Source: Candidatus Altimarinota bacterium
GTDB taxonomy: Bacteria > Patescibacteriota > Gracilibacteria > UBA4473
NCBI GenBank assembly: GCA_023143095.1
Contig: JAGLIF010000009.1
Span: 124,001-188,000 of the forward strand
Direction of reading: 5' to 3'
DNA length: 64,000 nucleotides
The stretch's first letter is position 1; each line of letters begins with the position of its first letter. The position numbers were made by a program, and so were the translations under genes. The notes beneath the pieces were generated by a model, which saw only the letters and a list, made by a program, of their open reading frames with translations, searched no databases and had not been told where the DNA came from. This document shows positions 45,258 to 54,157 of this stretch, piece by piece.

Positions 45258-45698
45258 GGGGATGATATGGCCTCGACAAGAAGAATTGAAAACTTTTTTC
45301 GGCGTTTCCGGTTTTGAATATTTACCGGTTATCCAAAATCTTCATAAAAAATAAGTGCAAACTTAAAAACTCGAACTCAAACAGCTTTAGCAAGCATAAA
45401 AGTAAGATTGGGACTTGTTCCTACTCCAGCTTTAGCTTACGCCTAACCTGAGAGTTCATAGGTAAATCCTGCTTGAGCCTTTGGCTCGCAGGTAATCTAA
45501 AAACAAGACCACATAATTTTTAGATTAAACTTTTGTGGTGTAGTTTTATCGGTTCTCAACGGTAAAATGAATCCTTCGAGAAAATTTTCAGGTATTTTGT
45601 TTATCCTATAAGCCTGAATCTTAAATAAATAAACTATGAGCGTAGAAGAAAAAACTTTTCCTTTTTGGACGCCGGTTCGATTCCGGCCATCTCCACCA
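45258..45698 (+). ncRNA. ssrA: Transfer-messenger RNA (tmRNA)
   Basis: This 441-nt RNA rescues stalled ribosomes. The 5' end GGGGATGATATGGCCTCGAC pairs with the 3' CATCTCC to form the acceptor stem, and the T arm CGGTTCGATTCCG and an encoded CCA (45696-45698) complete the tRNA-like domain. The tag frame most likely resumes at GCA 45357 and ends with TAA at 45444-45446. It gives 29 residues starting ANLKTRTQ and ending TPALAYA, which is longer than most tags. A serine recombinase lies immediately 3', on the opposite strand. Confidence 0.93.
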
Positions 45699-47205
45699 TA
45701 CATGATTCTGTATCGCCAGAGTCTTCAAGAACCTTATAGAGAAGCGGTTTAGGCAGTGTTCCATACCCGCTTTTTTTGTCGTACTTCAGTGAACCTGCGA
45801 AAGCCAGTTTTAGAACCAGTTGCTTGTCTTCTAAGTCCCCTGAAACCCACATGCCATGCGGATTTTCTATAAACTTCATAGAGTGTTCCATGAGTCGCTC
45901 GAAATCTAATCGATTGATACTTGTGCCCAACTTCTTAATCTTTTCTTGCTGAAGCGCTTCCATACCCTCCAAATCCTCGATCCTTTCGCCTAACGCCTGT
46001 TTTATTGCGGGACTTTTTACTGTGATATATTCATCTACTGTCTGCTTTTTCGTTTTCTCTGTCTGCTTCAATGCTCTTTCCTCTCTAGCCAGCCGAAAAG
46101 ACGCATCCCCTCTTACGACATCCCATTTATCTGTTAGGATCGTCTGAAGGGCTTTGAGTATCTGCTTCTGTGGGATAAAGGTCTGTAAAATTTGCTCCAG
46201 CTCCCCTTCAAGCCTGTTTCTCTGCAAACTCTTGCCGTAATACTTACACGGCTTATTTTGGCAGTGATAATTGGCGTATTTCTTTTTCTTGCCCTTGTTC
46301 CAACTACCTGTAACAAACCTACCACATCCAGCACAGGTAACGAACCCCCTAAGGGGGAAATCTTTACTGATGTCTTTTCTTGCTGGTCGCCTCTTTCTGT
46401 CTTTGAGTCTCTTTTGAATTCGATAATAGATTTCCAATGAAATCAAAGCCTCATGTTGGGCTTTCACAAACTCTATTCCCCATTTGGGGTAGTGAATATA
46501 TCCTGTATAAAGGACTTGCTTAAGTATTCGGTTCACTACATCGAGGTTCACTTTTTTCCCTCTTCGCGGGACAAAGCCTTTCTTTTTTAGAAATTTTGCC
46601 ACATCGACTTGAGTATCTAACACTCCGTTAGCGAAGGACTCTAGCGCTTCTTTTAATATTGAACACTGCGGTTCAAAAGGAACCATCAATTTTCCATGTT
46701 GAAGGCTAGTTTGGTAGGCATAGCCAGGAGGCATGTAAAAAGTCCAATATCCTGCCTGTAAACGCGCTTTCATTTTTTGAGAAACTTGTCTTTTATTTTG
46801 TTCCCGTTCTAACCCTCCCTGTGCCGCCAAAACAGACTCAATAAACTTTCCCTCAGGAGAATCATCAAAATTATAATTCAAACATTTTATAATTGCGTTG
46901 CGAGCGCTTAATTCCGCTCTTAGTTTCCAATGGACTGTCAAATCCCGTGCAAATCGCTTCAGATCGTCAAAAATCACCATGTATTGATCCATTGGATGAT
47001 CATCAAGGTATTTAAGTAATTCCGTCATCGCTGGACGTCCAAATAGATCTGCTCCTCCTGAAATAGCTTCATCTTTGAAAACTCTTTCAACAATCGCCCC
47101 CTCAGTTTTAGCATAATCCCTACAACGTTTTTCTTGGGTATCTAAACCACTCCCTTCAGTGACCTGTTTTTGTGACGAGACTCTGCAGTATATAAGAGAT
47201 TTCAT
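45634..47205 (-). CDS. Large serine recombinase (integrase) of the ssrA island
   Basis: This 523-aa site-specific recombinase has a resolvase domain (about 1-150; YCRVSSQKQ with catalytic S10, then SGGADLFGRPAM and FDDLKRFARD). A recombinase domain (about 160-280) follows. A zinc ribbon (CAGCGR ... CQNKPC) and coiled coil (about 380-450) complete it. The last about 20 codons, MVEMAGIEPASKKEKFF and on, are antisense to the tmRNA 3' end, so the stop codon belongs to ssrA. This places the recombinase exactly at the attachment junction. GC is visibly higher than in the surrounding genome. It is translationally coupled to a 46-aa ORF upstream. Confidence 0.92.
   Translation of the reverse strand: MKSLIYCRVSSQKQVTEGSGLDTQEKRCRDYAKTEGAIVERVFKDEAISGGADLFGRPAMTELLKYLDDHPMDQYMVIFDDLKRFARDLTVHWKLRAELSARNAIIKCLNYNFDDSPEGKFIESVLAAQGGLEREQNKRQVSQKMKARLQAGYWTFYMPPGYAYQTSLQHGKLMVPFEPQCSILKEALESFANGVLDTQVDVAKFLKKKGFVPRRGKKVNLDVVNRILKQVLYTGYIHYPKWGIEFVKAQHEALISLEIYYRIQKRLKDRKRRPARKDISKDFPLRGFVTCAGCGRFVTGSWNKGKKKKYANYHCQNKPCKYYGKSLQRNRLEGELEQILQTFIPQKQILKALQTILTDKWDVVRGDASFRLAREERALKQTEKTKKQTVDEYITVKSPAIKQALGERIEDLEGMEALQQEKIKKLGTSINRLDFERLMEHSMKFIENPHGMWVSGDLEDKQLVLKLAFAGSLKYDKKSGYGTLPKPLLYKVLEDSGDTESCMVEMAGIEPASKKEKFFLLRS
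45664..45715. other. Predicted attachment junction at the ssrA 3' end
   Basis: The tRNA-like 3' domain of ssrA meets recombinase coding sequence here. Element DNA must begin at or before 45699. I did not find a duplicate of the ssrA 3' segment elsewhere in the window, so the other end is not fixed. Confidence 0.45.
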
Positions 47206-47397: not shown

Positions 47398-48132
47398 TTA
47401 GAAATTTCTGTAAACCCTCCTTTTAGCAACGGTTGTTATTCCTTTCAAATTAAATTCGTCCTCTATAATTTTATTTATCCGTTTTGAAAGTCCTCGGAGC
47501 ATCTCGTAAGGATCGACATTCCTTTCAATCTTTTCATTTACTTCCTCAAGAGTAAATTCATGTCCTGGGGGTTGCGAAAAAACAACTTCACAAAATAATT
47601 CCTGTTCCTGAGATTTAAGTGGTGCAGTTTTCTGTGTAATCAGGTGCTTCAGATACTTTTTTTCTTTGTTGTAGGATAACAAAACTTGATCGACTTTCTG
47701 TTTGAGAAAGTTTTCAAATTTCTCTCTATCTTTCCACGAAAAAAACAATTCCCTAAATTCCGTTGTATATTCATCAGCAAATTCATCCCCAAAAATATTT
47801 TTCATATCTCCAAATTCCGAGTATTTCATATCTCCAAACTGCACCTCCCAAAAAACATCCACATCGGGAATCACGAAACAACGTGGTTCTTTGCAATTAT
47901 GTTCTAGACAATTTTGTTTCACTATAGCATTAACCTCTCTTGGCTCTGAGATCGCAAAGAATGCCGCAAAAAGCCTTGTTAGAGATAAATCCGTGGTAAT
48001 ATTCTCCTTTCGAAATTGGGCTTCTGAAACGGTGAAATTTGAGCATAAATCTCGAGGACATGCCTCTAGCTTCTTTTGTAAATAGAGGAAAACTCCCCTA
48101 TCTCCTGCAAACATTTCCTTAAAATCAGTCAT
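47398..48132 (-). CDS. Hypothetical protein with winged-helix-like C-terminus
   Basis: This 244-aa protein has a Cys-containing middle (CLEHNCKEPRCFVIPDVDVF) and a C-terminal region (FTLEEVNEKIERNVDPYEML, then RINKIIEDEFNLKGITTVAK and RRVYRNF) that reads like a winged helix-turn-helix. It is located directly upstream of the recombinase operon on the same strand, with a phased repeat array between. I infer a regulator of the element. No family is recognised. Confidence 0.5.
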   Translation of the reverse strand: MTDFKEMFAGDRGVFLYLQKKLEACPRDLCSNFTVSEAQFRKENITTDLSLTRLFAAFFAISEPREVNAIVKQNCLEHNCKEPRCFVIPDVDVFWEVQFGDMKYSEFGDMKNIFGDEFADEYTTEFRELFFSWKDREKFENFLKQKVDQVLLSYNKEKKYLKHLITQKTAPLKSQEQELFCEVVFSQPPGHEFTLEEVNEKIERNVDPYEMLRGLSKRINKIIEDEFNLKGITTVAKRRVYRNF

Positions 48133-48261: not shown

Positions 48262-48336
48262 GGGGCGATTTCTCGTCTGAGCAGATATTCCGCAAGGAAA
48301 TTCGAAGCCAGGGTGCACGAAAATCGCCCCTTTTTT
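48262..48336 (+). ncRNA. Structured leader RNA / attenuator before a tail-anchored protein
   Basis: GGGGCGATTT (48262-48271) pairs perfectly with AAATCGCCCC (48321-48330), followed by TTTTTT. Past a one-base bulge, TCGT (48273-48276) pairs with ACGA (48317-48320). An inner CTG/CAG and a TTCC-GCAA-GGAA hairpin with a GNRA tetraloop fill the top. The T run touches the ATG at 48338. This looks like a transcriptional attenuator or a small RNA with its own terminator. Confidence 0.55.
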
Positions 48337-48337
48337 G

Positions 48338-48991
48338 ATGAAAAAAACTATCGACATGCAAATTCGTGAAGCAATAGAAAACAGTCTATTCGATATAGAC
48401 AAAGTCTCAGAAAGAAATAAATCTGAGCCAAAAGAGGAAGGATACATGATTCATGCAACGCAGGCAGTGCTATCCCAATTTCTTGATAAAAACACAACTA
48501 TTGAATATAAAGAAATGGAACATCTTTATGTGGCACTTTCAAAATTGATGGAAATAGTTTTTTCTCAGAACCTTGAAAACAATTATTTCATTCGGTGCCA
48601 ACGAAATAAAATAGCTATTGTCTTTTGTTATATGGCTCAGAAGTTGAGTATTGAAGCAGTAAACTCTCTCAATCCAACTTCCTCCTCTCTTCCTCTTACT
48701 GATACTTCATTAAAATATGCTAATTTTGCATTATCTATTGTCTCGGATTTAAATCTCAAAAAACAAACACAACAAATAATAAATTCTCAAATCATTCACA
48801 ATCACAATGTTTGTGAAATGGCTGAAAATACAAAAGAAGAAATTGAAACGCAGTGGGCTGGATCTACGCAACGGCTTATTAAAAATCTAAACAATCCTTC
48901 CTCCAAAGAAATAAAACCAACTGAAAACTCCGCAAGAATCCTTGTTTGGATTCTAATTCTTGCGGGAGCGCTTATTTTAACCTTTTTCTAG
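48338..48991 (+). CDS. Hypothetical tail-anchored membrane protein
   Basis: This 217-aa helical protein has a single C-terminal membrane helix (ILVWILILAGALILTFF) and no signal peptide, the layout of a tail-anchored protein facing the cytoplasm. A histidine-rich patch (IIHNHNVCEMAE) precedes the tail. It is preceded immediately by a strong hairpin-T structure, so expression may depend on read-through. No family is recognised. Its location inside the ssrA island suggests an accessory function. Confidence 0.5.
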   Translation: MKKTIDMQIREAIENSLFDIDKVSERNKSEPKEEGYMIHATQAVLSQFLDKNTTIEYKEMEHLYVALSKLMEIVFSQNLENNYFIRCQRNKIAIVFCYMAQKLSIEAVNSLNPTSSSLPLTDTSLKYANFALSIVSDLNLKKQTQQIINSQIIHNHNVCEMAENTKEEIETQWAGSTQRLIKNLNNPSSKEIKPTENSARILVWILILAGALILTFF

Positions 48992-49478: not shown

Positions 49479-50750
49479 CTATTTAAGTAGTGTGTGTCCA
49501 GGACGAGAGATATAAGAAGCAATTTTATGTTGGATATCTATTACAATGTTTGAACGGAACTTTAATATTACATTAGCATCTTTAATTCGATTTTCATCTG
49601 TACAGTATGACTTTAAATTAAAAGAAAGTGTATATATAGCATTTTTATAAAAAAAGTTATTTTGTAATTGATAGCCATAGTCTTTTTTTACTTTTACTTC
49701 TCCTTTCGTTTTGCCTGTCTTTTTAAACCTTTTTGGATGTAATACTCCATTAATAAAATATCGGTTCCCATTAGAATTAGCCGATCCACAAAGTGGGGTT
49801 ACATCAACATACACCACTTCTAATTTTCTAATATAAAATTGTTTAAATTCTTGATTTATTTGAAGTTCATCTTGATCAATAATTTCCTTCAAAATATCTC
49901 GTCGTTGCTTAAGGCTTAATTTAAGTTTATAAATTACACCACTACTCTCAACATCATCAGTCAAAAATATTAATGATGTATTTAATTTTTCATTATCTTT
50001 CTCTAAACCTTTCCCCTTTGCTAGCTTTGAAAAACCTTGAGAAATTATTTCTTTTTCAATCTCATCTTGAAAGATTGTACTCAAATTAAGTAATGCATTT
50101 CTTTCTTTTTCTTTTTCTCCTCCAGAATAGCCTTTAGAAAGAGCTGTAATTAATGCAGATAGTCGGCTATCGCTCTTGTCTTTTACAATAGAAGATATTG
50201 ATTTACTAATCCCATTAATAGCTAAATTTTCACCTATAGAAAAAATTTCAAATGCTGGAACCCCAGAAAGAACAACATTTATTTTTTGTTGTATCAAATC
50301 ATAGTCATATTCATAATTAGGCTTTGTTCCACTTCTGCATTGACTTTTTTGAAGTACTATAATTTTAAGAGGCTTTGCCACATTATACTGTTTAAACTTT
50401 TTTTTAAATTCTTTAATTGCTTCATCAATCTCTCCCACTGGTTTACTTGTCCAAATAATAAGAATATATGCATTTATATCTCCAATAAATTTTTCTAAAT
50501 TTCCCATTGCATGCGTTGCTTTTTGTTCATTGCTATGTAACTCAATAGATACTGATTCTAATATAAAGTCTAAAAAAACAAGCCTTGGATTTTTTAATTT
50601 ATTACTGGGAAAATCCTCATTACACTGAATATGAAAAAACGCAGAAGGTACCCCTTTTTTGTTTAGAGCACTTTGAATAGCCTGCCCTTCTTCTAATTCA
50701 TCATCAATAACTAAAACTCGTGCAGAGTCTTTGTAATCTTCTATCCTCAT
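49479..50750 (-). CDS. Receiver-domain protein with unknown C-terminal domain
   Basis: This 423-aa protein begins with a response-regulator receiver: acidic pair D16/D17 in VLVIDDE, phospho-acceptor D61 in LVFLDFIL, T101 in IIWTSKP and K135 in VLQKSQ. There is a long insertion between D61 and T101. The remaining about 270 residues contain no DNA-binding helix-turn-helix, cyclase, EAL or HD-GYP motif that I can see. They end with VDVTPLCGSANSNGNRYF and ASYISRPGHTLL. The start overlaps the preceding gene by 4 bp (ATGA), so translation is coupled to the double-GHKL protein, its likely phosphodonor. Confidence 0.75.
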   Translation of the reverse strand: MRIEDYKDSARVLVIDDELEEGQAIQSALNKKGVPSAFFHIQCNEDFPSNKLKNPRLVFLDFILESVSIELHSNEQKATHAMGNLEKFIGDINAYILIIWTSKPVGEIDEAIKEFKKKFKQYNVAKPLKIIVLQKSQCRSGTKPNYEYDYDLIQQKINVVLSGVPAFEIFSIGENLAINGISKSISSIVKDKSDSRLSALITALSKGYSGGEKEKERNALLNLSTIFQDEIEKEIISQGFSKLAKGKGLEKDNEKLNTSLIFLTDDVESSGVIYKLKLSLKQRRDILKEIIDQDELQINQEFKQFYIRKLEVVYVDVTPLCGSANSNGNRYFINGVLHPKRFKKTGKTKGEVKVKKDYGYQLQNNFFYKNAIYTLSFNLKSYCTDENRIKDANVILKFRSNIVIDIQHKIASYISRPGHTLLK

Positions 50751-52924
50751 TTTTCTTTCTTAAAAATTAATTCAATGATAGCTCCTCTTTCAAATTCTTT
50801 GGGAATATCAACTTCATTAGAATTTCTAATAATAAGTCTTCCATTATGTACTTTCATCATTTCATCAACAATATGAAGCCCCAGACCTGTGCCTCCATTT
50901 TTCATTGAAATAAATGGTCTTATTGCATCTTCTGAATTAATAGTAAATCCTTTTCCATTATCAACGATTAAAAGACCTATTTCATCACGGTAGTCTCTGA
51001 AATTTATATATAGCTTCTTTTCTTCTATGGCGTAGGTATTTAGCCAATAAAGACTGTTATCAAAGATATTTAGCAATGCACCAACTATTACATTTGAAGC
51101 ACAAACAATTTTTTGATCTTTGGCATTCTCAAATGCTTTTATTATTACTGTTTTATGGGCGCAAAAACGGAATTCGGTATTGAACAATGCATCATTAACT
51201 ACTTTTTTCAAAGGAATAGACTTTTTTTGTTTATTTGAAACTAAGTCTGCATAATTTCCTACTAATTGAGAAATATCTTCTACTATTTTTTTTGTTTTTT
51301 CCAACGGGTTTTCCTCTAACTCTTTTGTATCCGCACCTAGAGACTCAATAACTTTTTCTAACTCCCTAATCCTTTTTTCAATTTCGTGTATTACAACGCT
51401 TAAGTTTAGCCCTGCTCCTGCACTTTTAATCAATATATCGTGAGTCTCAATATATTGCTTTTTTATAATGTCTAAATTCACAATGATATTATCTCTAATT
51501 TCAATAGCATATTTCTGTTTTTCTTTAGAAAGACCTTCGGACAAATCATTAATTTTTTCTTCAGCAAGTTGCTTTAATTCATCTACATTATATAAAACAG
51601 GTTCTGATTTAACGACTCCTTCATAAAACTCTTTAATTTTTAGTTTATCTAAATTTCTTAGATTATTAAATAAGCCAATAACTTGTAATATTGATGCTTT
51701 AAAACTTGAGTATGCCTCATTTTCTACAAAACCTTCACGATTAGTTTTTTCTCTTAAAGCAGTACTTACTTTTCGATCTAACGATACAGCCCCTAAAATT
51801 AATTTATTACCAATTTTACCACCAACATTAGAAACTCTTTGCTGGTCTAAATTCAGCCAATCATCTTCAATCTCTCCATAACTATAAATCCTCATATCAT
51901 CTCTATAAACACGGACCCCACCATTCTGTTTCAGAAATTTATTTATTTCGGAATTATCAATGTTCCCTAGTCTTAGAATTTTTGATCCAAGATAAAAAAC
52001 ATTTAATTCAAGCTCTACATCTCCTATTTTATGAGAGGAGAGATCTGCCTCTGCAGAAAGAATAGTAAGCTCTTTTATTTTTTTTGACGTTTCTGTTAAT
52101 GAGTACTTTTCAAGTTTATCCATTTGTGAATATGGAAGGAATTCATACTTAAATTTAGCTATTTTGTTTCCAGAAATAGTACATTTTAATCTCCAAAGGG
52201 CTAGGTTTTTAATTTCTTGAATAGATAGTTTTTTTTCTTCCCATTTTGATTGTTTCTCTTTCTCTTTTAGTTTTAGTTTTAAATTCACAGAAAATTCATT
52301 TTTTAAACCTTTTTCTTTAAAGGGAGAATTCAATGAATTAATAGTTCTATATAAATCTCTAAACTTAAAAATAGTCCAATCAGTTCTAATTTTTTTTATT
52401 GAAATATAAGTGCCAGTTCCTCCATCAATAAATAATTCCGGAGTACGCTCTATAACGTCAAATTGTGCATTTTCTAGATATTTATTGCTTTTAAATTTTT
52501 GCCAATCGAGAGTGACAACTATTTCCTTTTTTGAATTAGCACTTTTTGTAATCATTTCAATATAATCTCCTAATTTATGCACTCCAAAACGTCCAATACC
52601 TTTTTCTCCAATAGGGGTCCTTTCTGTAGTATAAGAATATTCAAATAAATCCAACTGCTGATTAATTATTAATTCCTTAAAATCAGCGCCAGGCTCTAAC
52701 CAAACCTCTTCAATGACCTTTTTAGTCATTCCAATACCATCATCTTTTATGATAATTTCACTTATTTTTTTACTATCAATGTTTTTTAATACTACTTCAC
52801 AATTATTAGCACCAGCATCATAAGCATTTTTTACTAACTCAACTACAGCAATATTTTCACTTTTAATAAGTTGATCACCTAATTGAATTAGCATTCTTGC
52901 TCGCGGTTTAAATATCTTTTTCAT
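50747..52924 (-). CDS. Double GHKL ATPase: MORC/Hsp90-like plus histidine-kinase-like
   Basis: This 725-aa cytoplasmic protein has two Bergerat-fold ATPase sites. The first (about 1-180) has the N-box VELVKNAYDAGA (E29, N33), IIIKDDGIGM (D62) and GEKGIGRFGVHKLGD, as in MORC, MutL and Hsp90. The second (about 490-725) resembles a sensor kinase core: an H-box-like LSVVIHEIEKRIREL with H513, the N-box NIFDNSLYWLN (N623), LLIVDNGKGF (D655) and NGGTGLGLHIVDEMMKVHNG. No membrane helix or PAS domain is seen. It is the middle gene of an operon with a C5 methyltransferase upstream and a receiver protein downstream. Confidence 0.82.
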   Translation of the reverse strand: MKKIFKPRARMLIQLGDQLIKSENIAVVELVKNAYDAGANNCEVVLKNIDSKKISEIIIKDDGIGMTKKVIEEVWLEPGADFKELIINQQLDLFEYSYTTERTPIGEKGIGRFGVHKLGDYIEMITKSANSKKEIVVTLDWQKFKSNKYLENAQFDVIERTPELFIDGGTGTYISIKKIRTDWTIFKFRDLYRTINSLNSPFKEKGLKNEFSVNLKLKLKEKEKQSKWEEKKLSIQEIKNLALWRLKCTISGNKIAKFKYEFLPYSQMDKLEKYSLTETSKKIKELTILSAEADLSSHKIGDVELELNVFYLGSKILRLGNIDNSEINKFLKQNGGVRVYRDDMRIYSYGEIEDDWLNLDQQRVSNVGGKIGNKLILGAVSLDRKVSTALREKTNREGFVENEAYSSFKASILQVIGLFNNLRNLDKLKIKEFYEGVVKSEPVLYNVDELKQLAEEKINDLSEGLSKEKQKYAIEIRDNIIVNLDIIKKQYIETHDILIKSAGAGLNLSVVIHEIEKRIRELEKVIESLGADTKELEENPLEKTKKIVEDISQLVGNYADLVSNKQKKSIPLKKVVNDALFNTEFRFCAHKTVIIKAFENAKDQKIVCASNVIVGALLNIFDNSLYWLNTYAIEEKKLYINFRDYRDEIGLLIVDNGKGFTINSEDAIRPFISMKNGGTGLGLHIVDEMMKVHNGRLIIRNSNEVDIPKEFERGAIIELIFKKEK

Positions 52925-52930
52925 GAAATT

Positions 52931-54157
52931 CTATTTAAAGTGTTTTTTTAATCTTTTTGCCAATAATTGAGAAAACATTGGTGGTACAGCATTTCCAATT
53001 TGTTTAAACTGTGAAGTCCTAGGTCCTTCAAATTTATAACTATCTGGAAATGTTTGCAATCTTGCTGCCTCTCTTATTGATAGAGACCTATTTTGCTTGC
53101 CATCGGGATGAATGTAGTGATGTCCATCCTTCGAAATATGAGCAACAACAGTGTGACACGCCGACATGTTGCCTTCAATGACTTTAAATCTATCCAAAAA
53201 GCTTTTCTCGTTACTGTGTGTTTTTAGTCTTTTGGGAAGATCTGTGTATTTTAGTCTCTCTTCTTTTTCATATTTTTCAACTGCAATTCTATAAATTTCT
53301 TTATCTTGTTCGTTGTGAGGTCTAGCAATGTGATCAATGACAACGGAGATATCCCTGATTTCTAAATCTACTAAAGGCTTTGATGGCTTGATGTATTCAG
53401 AAATATCATCACCTTGTCCATCTTTTAATTGAGGCAAATCTACTAAAAAATCATTCACAAGAAGGGAATGGGGCGAATTTTTTTTGAAAACTTCTTTTAT
53501 ATCAATATCAACGCCTTTTTTCCAGCCAATCATTATAATTCTTTTTCTTTTTTGAGGGATTCCAAAATCAGCCATGTTTACAGGGTCAGGAAATGGAACA
53601 GTGTATCCTAGCGCCCTCATATCCGAAATCATATTTTTTAAATACACGCCACCCCCTGCAGTCAAAAGACCTGGAACATTTTCAAATATGAAAAATTTAG
53701 GCTTTAACTCCTTTAAAAATTTTAAATAAAATTTATATAGGTGATTTCGTTTGTCGTCCTTCATTCCATTTTTGTCTCGGGCACGTCCTATGTTGGAATA
53801 TGCCTGGCAAGGAGGACCACCAATTATACCTAGAAGGTCATCGTTCCCCAGTTTTTTTTTCATATTGGAAATTAATATATCACAATTTTTATCGTCAATC
53901 TCTGCGTTAATTATTTTTTTTAATTCTTCATTGAGTTTGTATTTTTTTACAAGCGACTCCTTAGAAACAAGCCCCTTTACATATGCTTCATAGTCTTCAA
54001 GATTATTTGTTTTTTTTAAATAATAATAAATAGACCTTGTTTCAAGGGTTTCGCAGGCATATGAATCCATTTCAATATGCCCTACGAAATCAAATCCTTC
54101 TTTCCAAAAACCTTCAGAAAGCCCACCTGCTCCAGCAAAAAGGTCTAAAATCTTCAT
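52931..54157 (-). CDS. DNA (cytosine-5-)-methyltransferase
   Basis: This 408-aa m5C methyltransferase shows the motifs in order: I (LDLFAGAGGLSEGF), IV (GGPPCQAYSNIGRAR with the catalytic Cys), VI (FENVPGLL), VIII (IPQKRKRIIMIGW), and IX/X (SIREAARLQTFPDSYKF, QIGNAVPP). There is a sizeable insertion between motifs I and IV. The target-recognition region (about 250-320) does not reveal the sequence methylated. It heads the operon, 6 bp before the double-GHKL gene. No endonuclease gene, Vsr or specificity subunit is adjacent. Confidence 0.93.
   Translation of the reverse strand: MKILDLFAGAGGLSEGFWKEGFDFVGHIEMDSYACETLETRSIYYYLKKTNNLEDYEAYVKGLVSKESLVKKYKLNEELKKIINAEIDDKNCDILISNMKKKLGNDDLLGIIGGPPCQAYSNIGRARDKNGMKDDKRNHLYKFYLKFLKELKPKFFIFENVPGLLTAGGGVYLKNMISDMRALGYTVPFPDPVNMADFGIPQKRKRIIMIGWKKGVDIDIKEVFKKNSPHSLLVNDFLVDLPQLKDGQGDDISEYIKPSKPLVDLEIRDISVVIDHIARPHNEQDKEIYRIAVEKYEKEERLKYTDLPKRLKTHSNEKSFLDRFKVIEGNMSACHTVVAHISKDGHHYIHPDGKQNRSLSIREAARLQTFPDSYKFEGPRTSQFKQIGNAVPPMFSQLLAKRLKKHFK

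Follow-up and report, generated by a model that had tools for sequence, protein, structure and literature searches.

A three-gene operon in the window (the whole 64,000-nucleotide stretch of DNA that was analysed) encodes a C5 cytosine DNA methyltransferase, a kinase with two GHKL ATPase domains and a receiver protein. The reading we prefer, to which we give about an even chance, is that it senses DNA as a module of the paraMORC and two-component-like kind, linked to a methylase and controlled by a phosphorelay, and probably serves in defence against foreign DNA. Gene order and domain architecture, the conservation of the ATP sites and of a histidine and an aspartate, the co-evolution of kinase and receiver, and the enrichment of methylase, Vsr and nuclease genes nearby are all observed, and are described below.

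Organization of the operon

The genes are read from the minus strand in the order methylase, kinase, receiver, and all three frames are intact and open. A 6 bp gap separates the methylase and kinase genes, and the kinase and receiver genes share a 4-bp ATGA overlap; the ORF coordinates agree with the preliminary description of three tightly packed genes forming one operon. The features are:

52931..54157, minus strand: C5 cytosine DNA methyltransferase, 408 aa (ORF, PF00145, catalytic motifs all kept)
50747..52924, minus strand: double-GHKL kinase, 725 aa, with MORC-type ATPase module, coiled coil, DHp hairpin and kinase CA domain
52475..52855, minus strand: N-terminal GHKL domain of the kinase (HATPase_c_3), residues 24–150 (Pfam, 3.9e-16)
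51725..52414, minus strand: S5-like middle domain of the kinase, residues about 171–400, boundaries approximate (model, Foldseek, conservation)
51239..51412, minus strand: predicted DHp helical hairpin of the kinase, residues 505–562 (model and conservation)
50759..51079, minus strand: C-terminal kinase CA domain (HATPase_c), residues 616–722 (Pfam, 2.7e-15)
49479..50750, minus strand: receiver protein, 423 aa (ORF, model, Foldseek, conservation)
50265..50723, minus strand: receiver domain, residues about 10–162 (D16, D17, D61, T101, K135)
49482..49958, minus strand: C-terminal alpha+beta output domain of the receiver protein, residues about 265–423, with C321

The first gene was initially described as a cytosine methyltransferase, and its match to the Pfam family DNA_methylase (PF00145, 2.8e-61) with intact motifs I, IV (PCQ), VI (ENV), VIII, IX and X confirms this. 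It is the sole PF00145 gene in the 1.2-Mb genome.

The kinase

Residues of both kinase ATP sites are invariant or nearly so among relatives. E29, N33, the GxG motif and K108/G109 of the N-terminal GHKL domain are invariant across 63 relatives, the S5-like middle domain carries invariant K393 and R396, and the invariant residues of the CA domain are N619, D622, N623, D655 and G657. An N-terminal HATPase_c_3 and a C-terminal HATPase_c domain occur in one protein in all 63 kinases of the subfamily. AlphaFold2 models were made with input alignments of 63 kinases and 79 receivers. In the kinase model (pLDDT 85) the DHp hairpin consists of helices 505–527 and 540–562; the predicted phospho-acceptor, H513, is present in 63/63 kinases and its acidic neighbour, E514, in 54/63.

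Foldseek searches match the N-terminal part of the model to SMCHD1 (5.9e-12), MORC2 (6.3e-11) and MORC3 (3.0e-10), and also to TRAP1, and its C-terminal end to the HK853 kinase. The predicted fold is consistent with a histidine kinase core joined to a MORC-like ATPase; the MORC/MutL-like ATPase with such a core that the preliminary description proposed is what both the Pfam domains and the Foldseek matches point to. The N-terminal domain also matches NF050001 (2.9e-16), the model for BbrUII/HgiDII, which are restriction enzymes by name. No membrane helix is indicated in either signalling protein, the peak 19-residue Kyte-Doolittle mean being 1.40 for the kinase and 1.27 for the receiver, and neither protein matches any PADLOC model.

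The receiver protein

The receiver protein of the window has no Pfam match. Its AlphaFold2 model (pLDDT 89) shows a (beta-alpha)5 receiver, then a helical stretch and finally an alpha+beta domain, with D16/D17, D61, T101 and K135 modelled at the ends of beta1, beta3, beta4 and beta5, respectively. Foldseek finds response regulators with this model, with clear PDB relatives for the receiver part only, and the predicted fold fits a CheY-like receiver domain. Among 79 receivers, D16 is found in 79, D17 in 76, D61 in 79, T or S at position 101 in 74 and K135 in 78; thus the claim that all phosphorylation residues are present holds in the model and in the alignment.

The output domain has a signature of its own. 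C321 is kept in 79/79 proteins and position 322 is D in 78/79 relatives; the window copy alone has G at this position, that is CG where the others have CD. Position 173, which is W in 76/79 relatives, is also G in the window receiver. The output of the window copy may be altered or lost, because D322 and W173 are both replaced by G. The protein aligns to its relatives over its full length. Distant receivers, and likewise Pfam Response_reg_2 proteins, have a Cys-Asp motif of similar kind. No DNA-binding output domain was recognised by Pfam, the Foldseek matches are of receiver type only, and none of them identifies the output domain.

Recurrence and co-evolution

The receivers are very divergent (mostly 14–24% identity), and for this reason the kinase alignment was used to find relatives; the receiver alone gave no match in a direct contig search, nor in a tblastn search of plasmids. 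When 84,980 species genomes were scanned with the kinase alignment, 304 relatives emerged; the 80 best were retained, and 25 viral contigs were added. The relatives span at least 15 phyla and hundreds of genomes, and the trio does recur in unrelated genomes, its homologues being neighbours there too, so that the refuting condition named in the preliminary description, homologues apart from one another elsewhere, does not apply. The gene that directly follows the kinase encodes a receiver in 85 of the 88 non-redundant loci of the subfamily, and the modal kinase-receiver spacing is −4 bp, as in the window. Several copies of the module are on plasmids, and others are beside prophage baseplate, tail and portal genes.

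Up to four genes away on either side of the kinase, the frequency of C5 methylase genes is 0.109 per gene position, compared with 0.008 at a distance of 6–10 genes, and the corresponding values for Vsr genes are 0.072 and 0.0026; there are 46 Vsr genes at most four genes from the kinase in the 88 loci. The methylase enrichment is not built in, since the kinase was the query that located the loci. Among 128 flanking proteins, Pfam recognises nucleases of the AspBHI type (7), EcoRII (6), MvaI/BcnI (5), HaeII (1) and HNH_2 (2), together with AbiE toxin-antitoxin genes.

Pairwise distances between kinases are correlated with those between their receivers (r = 0.93, 68 loci), which shows that the two form one machine and travel together. 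For kinase and methylase in the same loci, a pairing that acts as the background control, the value is r = 0.20, and the methylase is therefore an exchangeable partner that is swapped among loci. The preliminary description took all three genes for probably one machine. This stands for kinase and receiver, both by co-evolution and by adjacency, and has to be relaxed for the methylase, which is a looser partner. Since methylases are swapped, a sensor tuned to a single methylation motif seems unlikely. A chance neighbourhood is ruled out by the kinase-receiver co-evolution and the neighbour enrichment.

The window kinase groups with those of Bacteroidota, Ignavibacteriota, Fibrobacterota and Spirochaetota (7 rows, support 100/99), and its branch is long (1.57 vs a median of 0.4). 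Within its own phylum a full-length kinase was found in one other genome of 380, also with a receiver beside it. In the tree group of the window kinase, Vsr is often found 3′ of methylase-kinase-receiver. In the close relative L014 an HhH-GPD glycosylase (L014:11440-12072:+) occupies the place of Vsr, as if one T:G repair gene had been swapped for another. The window has neither of these, and Vsr is absent genome-wide.

Two other neighbourhoods should be pointed out. AspBHI-type enzymes (PF18062 plus Mrr_cat, ‘methyl-directed’ in PADLOC; cluster c4, e.g. L080:10007-11191:+) are found beside or near the pair in L036, L046, L047, L051, L059, L060, L080, L084 and L087, in most cases near a C5 methylase. 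By name these enzymes would cut methylated DNA, which is odd beside a methylase that marks the host. In L105, L116 and L117, whose kinases are more distant, the genes after the kinase encode a protein of ~220 aa, an HNH nuclease and an Eco57I-type N6-methylase; this arrangement is the same idea with an adenine methylase.

Relation to known systems

Bellieny-Rabelo et al. (2021; PMC8011034) described kinases composed of HATPase_c_3, a His box and HATPase_c that are encoded beside receiver-like proteins (91.6% linked). Their paraMORC-type kinase/receiver pairs are accompanied by C5 methylases and Vsr, and the authors speculate on signalling cascades controlling R-M systems (PMC8011034). The window pair shares with these a soluble kinase with HATPase_c_3, a His-containing hairpin and HATPase_c, an adjacent receiver with the DD, D, T and K residues and, around the pair in its subfamily, C5 methylases, Vsr and R-M genes. 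The C-terminal Cys-Asp motif is also present in the Pfam-positive members (HEF_HK/Response_reg_2 kind) that were fetched. Unlike the Vsr-linked kind, the window copy has no Vsr or recognisable nuclease.

The Pfam families Response_reg_2 (PF19192) and HEF_HK (PF19191) match 0/79 receivers and 0/63 kinases of the subfamily, respectively; the PF19192 search itself works, since 4/99 genomes of one genus have matches. The receiver profile aligns with a small set of long receivers, two of them with and two without a PF19192 match, in the output domain only, and weakly (E 0.0012, probability 20%). The Vsr-linked genera of the 2021 work include Azotobacter, Agrobacterium, Rhizobium, Mesorhizobium and Chlorobium (PMC8011034), and the A. 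vinelandii genome carries a copy of the present subfamily (L076) and no PF19192 match. The overlap in genera, with A. vinelandii as an example, indicates that the published set very likely included this subfamily. The arrangement has thus been known since 2021, by sequence only, and is not new in kind. The initial remark that a phosphorelay in such a set could not be matched to a named defence type needs correction, as kinase-receiver pairs beside C5 methylases were already described (PMC8011034).

ParaMORC GHKL ATPases in R-M operons were reported by Iyer, Abhiman and Aravind (2008; PMC2292703). The common properties are an N-terminal GHKL plus S5-like module and C5 methylase and Vsr neighbours. 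In the window the paraMORC-type ATPase shares its polypeptide with a complete histidine-kinase core and has a receiver partner, whereas the paraMORC families with extra domains in that work have nuclease, TIR or unknown domains instead (PMC2292703). BbrUII/HgiDII and the GHKL-Shedu protein VcSduA likewise represent a related N-terminal GHKL ATPase in a restriction or anti-phage protein. In VcSduA this ATPase is required for anti-phage activity, and the protein has a nuclease domain of its own where the window protein has a kinase core (PMC12137116).

Two further systems were considered and rejected. The best PADLOC match of the window methylase is the DISARM methylase DrmMII (1e-154), but the likeness to DISARM ends there, as PADLOC finds no DrmA helicase, DrmB or DrmC among the six island proteins. 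Detocs also employs a histidine kinase and a receiver in defence, and its effector is a nucleotide-degrading purine-nucleoside phosphorylase (PNP) domain; Pfam finds no such domain in the window receiver or among the families listed for its 79 relatives. In the open-licence literature neither an experiment on any member nor a later named system was found.

Proposed mechanism and alternatives

In the mechanism we propose, the methylase would mark host DNA by 5-methylcytosine at its motif. The N-terminal GHKL and S5 module would be driven by ATP, as a clamp of the MORC/MutL type, and would react to the wrong kind of DNA; closure of the clamp might be relayed by the coiled coil to the DHp/CA kinase, with autophosphorylation on H513. 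From there the phosphate would be handed to D61 of the receiver, whose gene overlaps that of the kinase, and the receiver output domain could act directly or control a nuclease provided by a variable neighbour. We infer every biochemical step here, from phosphotransfer to effector activity, and likewise the signal sensed and the role in defence. It is possible that the window copy functions with no nuclease, or that its output is being lost.

Several lines of evidence favour a DNA-sensing defence module: the 85/88 adjacency and r = 0.93 of the pair, the methylase, Vsr and nuclease enrichment, the invariant His and Asp, the intact ATPase sites, the matches of the models to MORC, HK853 and receivers, the BbrUII/HgiDII match, the GHKL requirement of VcSduA, and carriage on plasmids, near prophage genes and, in the window, in an ssrA island. 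Against it are the want of an effector, as Pfam and PADLOC recognise no nuclease, toxin or other effector in the operon or island, the genome-wide absence of Vsr, the altered output residues, the lack of a PADLOC model for kinase or receiver, and the open-licence literature, where no experiments on members were found. A bolder form of this reading, which we put forward only tentatively, is that of an unnamed, widespread defence type: a His-Asp phosphorelay, and not a built-in nuclease, would read out the MORC-family ATP clamp, the output domain with its Cys-Asp or Arg-x-Gly motif being a new effector and the methylase a self mark only. If so, the relay alone would be the restricting arm in nuclease-free loci such as that of the window.

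The pair could be a regulator and not an effector, that is, a soluble two-component system that senses methylation or the state of the DNA and tunes how far the linked methylase and restriction enzyme are expressed or active, e.g. on entering a new host. The speculation of Bellieny-Rabelo et al. on cascades over R-M systems leads in this direction (PMC8011034), as does the finding of one conserved pair with diverse, exchangeable nucleases. However, the receiver has no DNA-binding output domain that Pfam recognises and only receiver-type Foldseek matches, and the window locus offers no restriction enzyme to regulate, so that we regard this possibility as rather doubtful. It is improbable that the module limits C-to-T mutation caused by the methylase, with the GHKL clamp as a MutL-like partner of Vsr or a T:G glycosylase. 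E. coli MutL works with Vsr (as cited in PMC2292703), and this cooperation, the 46 Vsr genes near the kinase and the glycosylase that replaces Vsr in L014 would all be accounted for, but Vsr is missing from the window genome, a His-Asp relay is unnecessary for such a role, and the more distant relatives of the pair accompany N6-methylases and HNH nucleases.

The long branch of the window kinase, the change of CD to CG and of W to G at otherwise near-invariant positions and the missing Vsr might also be signs of decay: a system once complete with Vsr or a nuclease, of which the island retains an active methylase while the output domain is losing function. The three open frames, the full-length alignment of the receiver and the retention of the catalytic residues of the methylase and both ATPase domains, of the His and of the receiver Asp speak against decay, which we likewise consider to be improbable.

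The kind occurs in at least 15 phyla, with a small-genome lineage included, and in hundreds of genomes; its kinase and receiver are missed by PADLOC and by the dedicated Pfam models. With a co-evolving pair, an exchanged methylase and an invariant His and Asp, what was a vague association becomes a testable claim, that of a phosphorelay in a restriction-type module. MORC-type ATPases silence genomes in eukaryotes; the relay, if shown, would link ATPases of this type with two-component signalling in bacterial immunity.

The ssrA island

The module is in an island at the tmRNA gene, as was first noted, and the 3′ end of a serine recombinase gene overlaps the 3′ end of the tmRNA:

45258..45698, plus strand: tmRNA (ssrA), insertion target
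45634..47205, minus strand: large serine recombinase, island carrier, outside the module (ORF, Pfam)

At the ssrA loci of six relatives nothing matches the recombinase or the two small island proteins, and a search of 98 relatives for the receiver was negative. In the window, repeats reveal neither a second tmRNA 3′ end nor a right-hand att site, which leaves the other boundary of the island undefined.

Restriction enzymes diverge fast; two island proteins, of 244 and 218 aa, have no recognised family or restriction-endonuclease assignment. The 244-aa protein (47398-48132, minus strand) has a 41% relative (L130:7319-8056) in a genome of the same family; the neighbours of this relative are a tyrosine-type integrase and a 1338-aa protein whose N terminus has an NTP-binding-like motif, and the module is not present there. 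The 244-aa protein is likely an element gene, and was dropped as a candidate for the missing nuclease, having no family match and a relative that is found by an integrase without the module. The 218-aa protein (48335-48991, plus strand), encoded between the module and the recombinase, carries a hydrophobic helix at its C terminus, and no family matches it with confidence. The tag encoded by the window tmRNA is unusually long, with 29 residues (ANLKTRTQTALASIKVRLGLVPTPALAYA).
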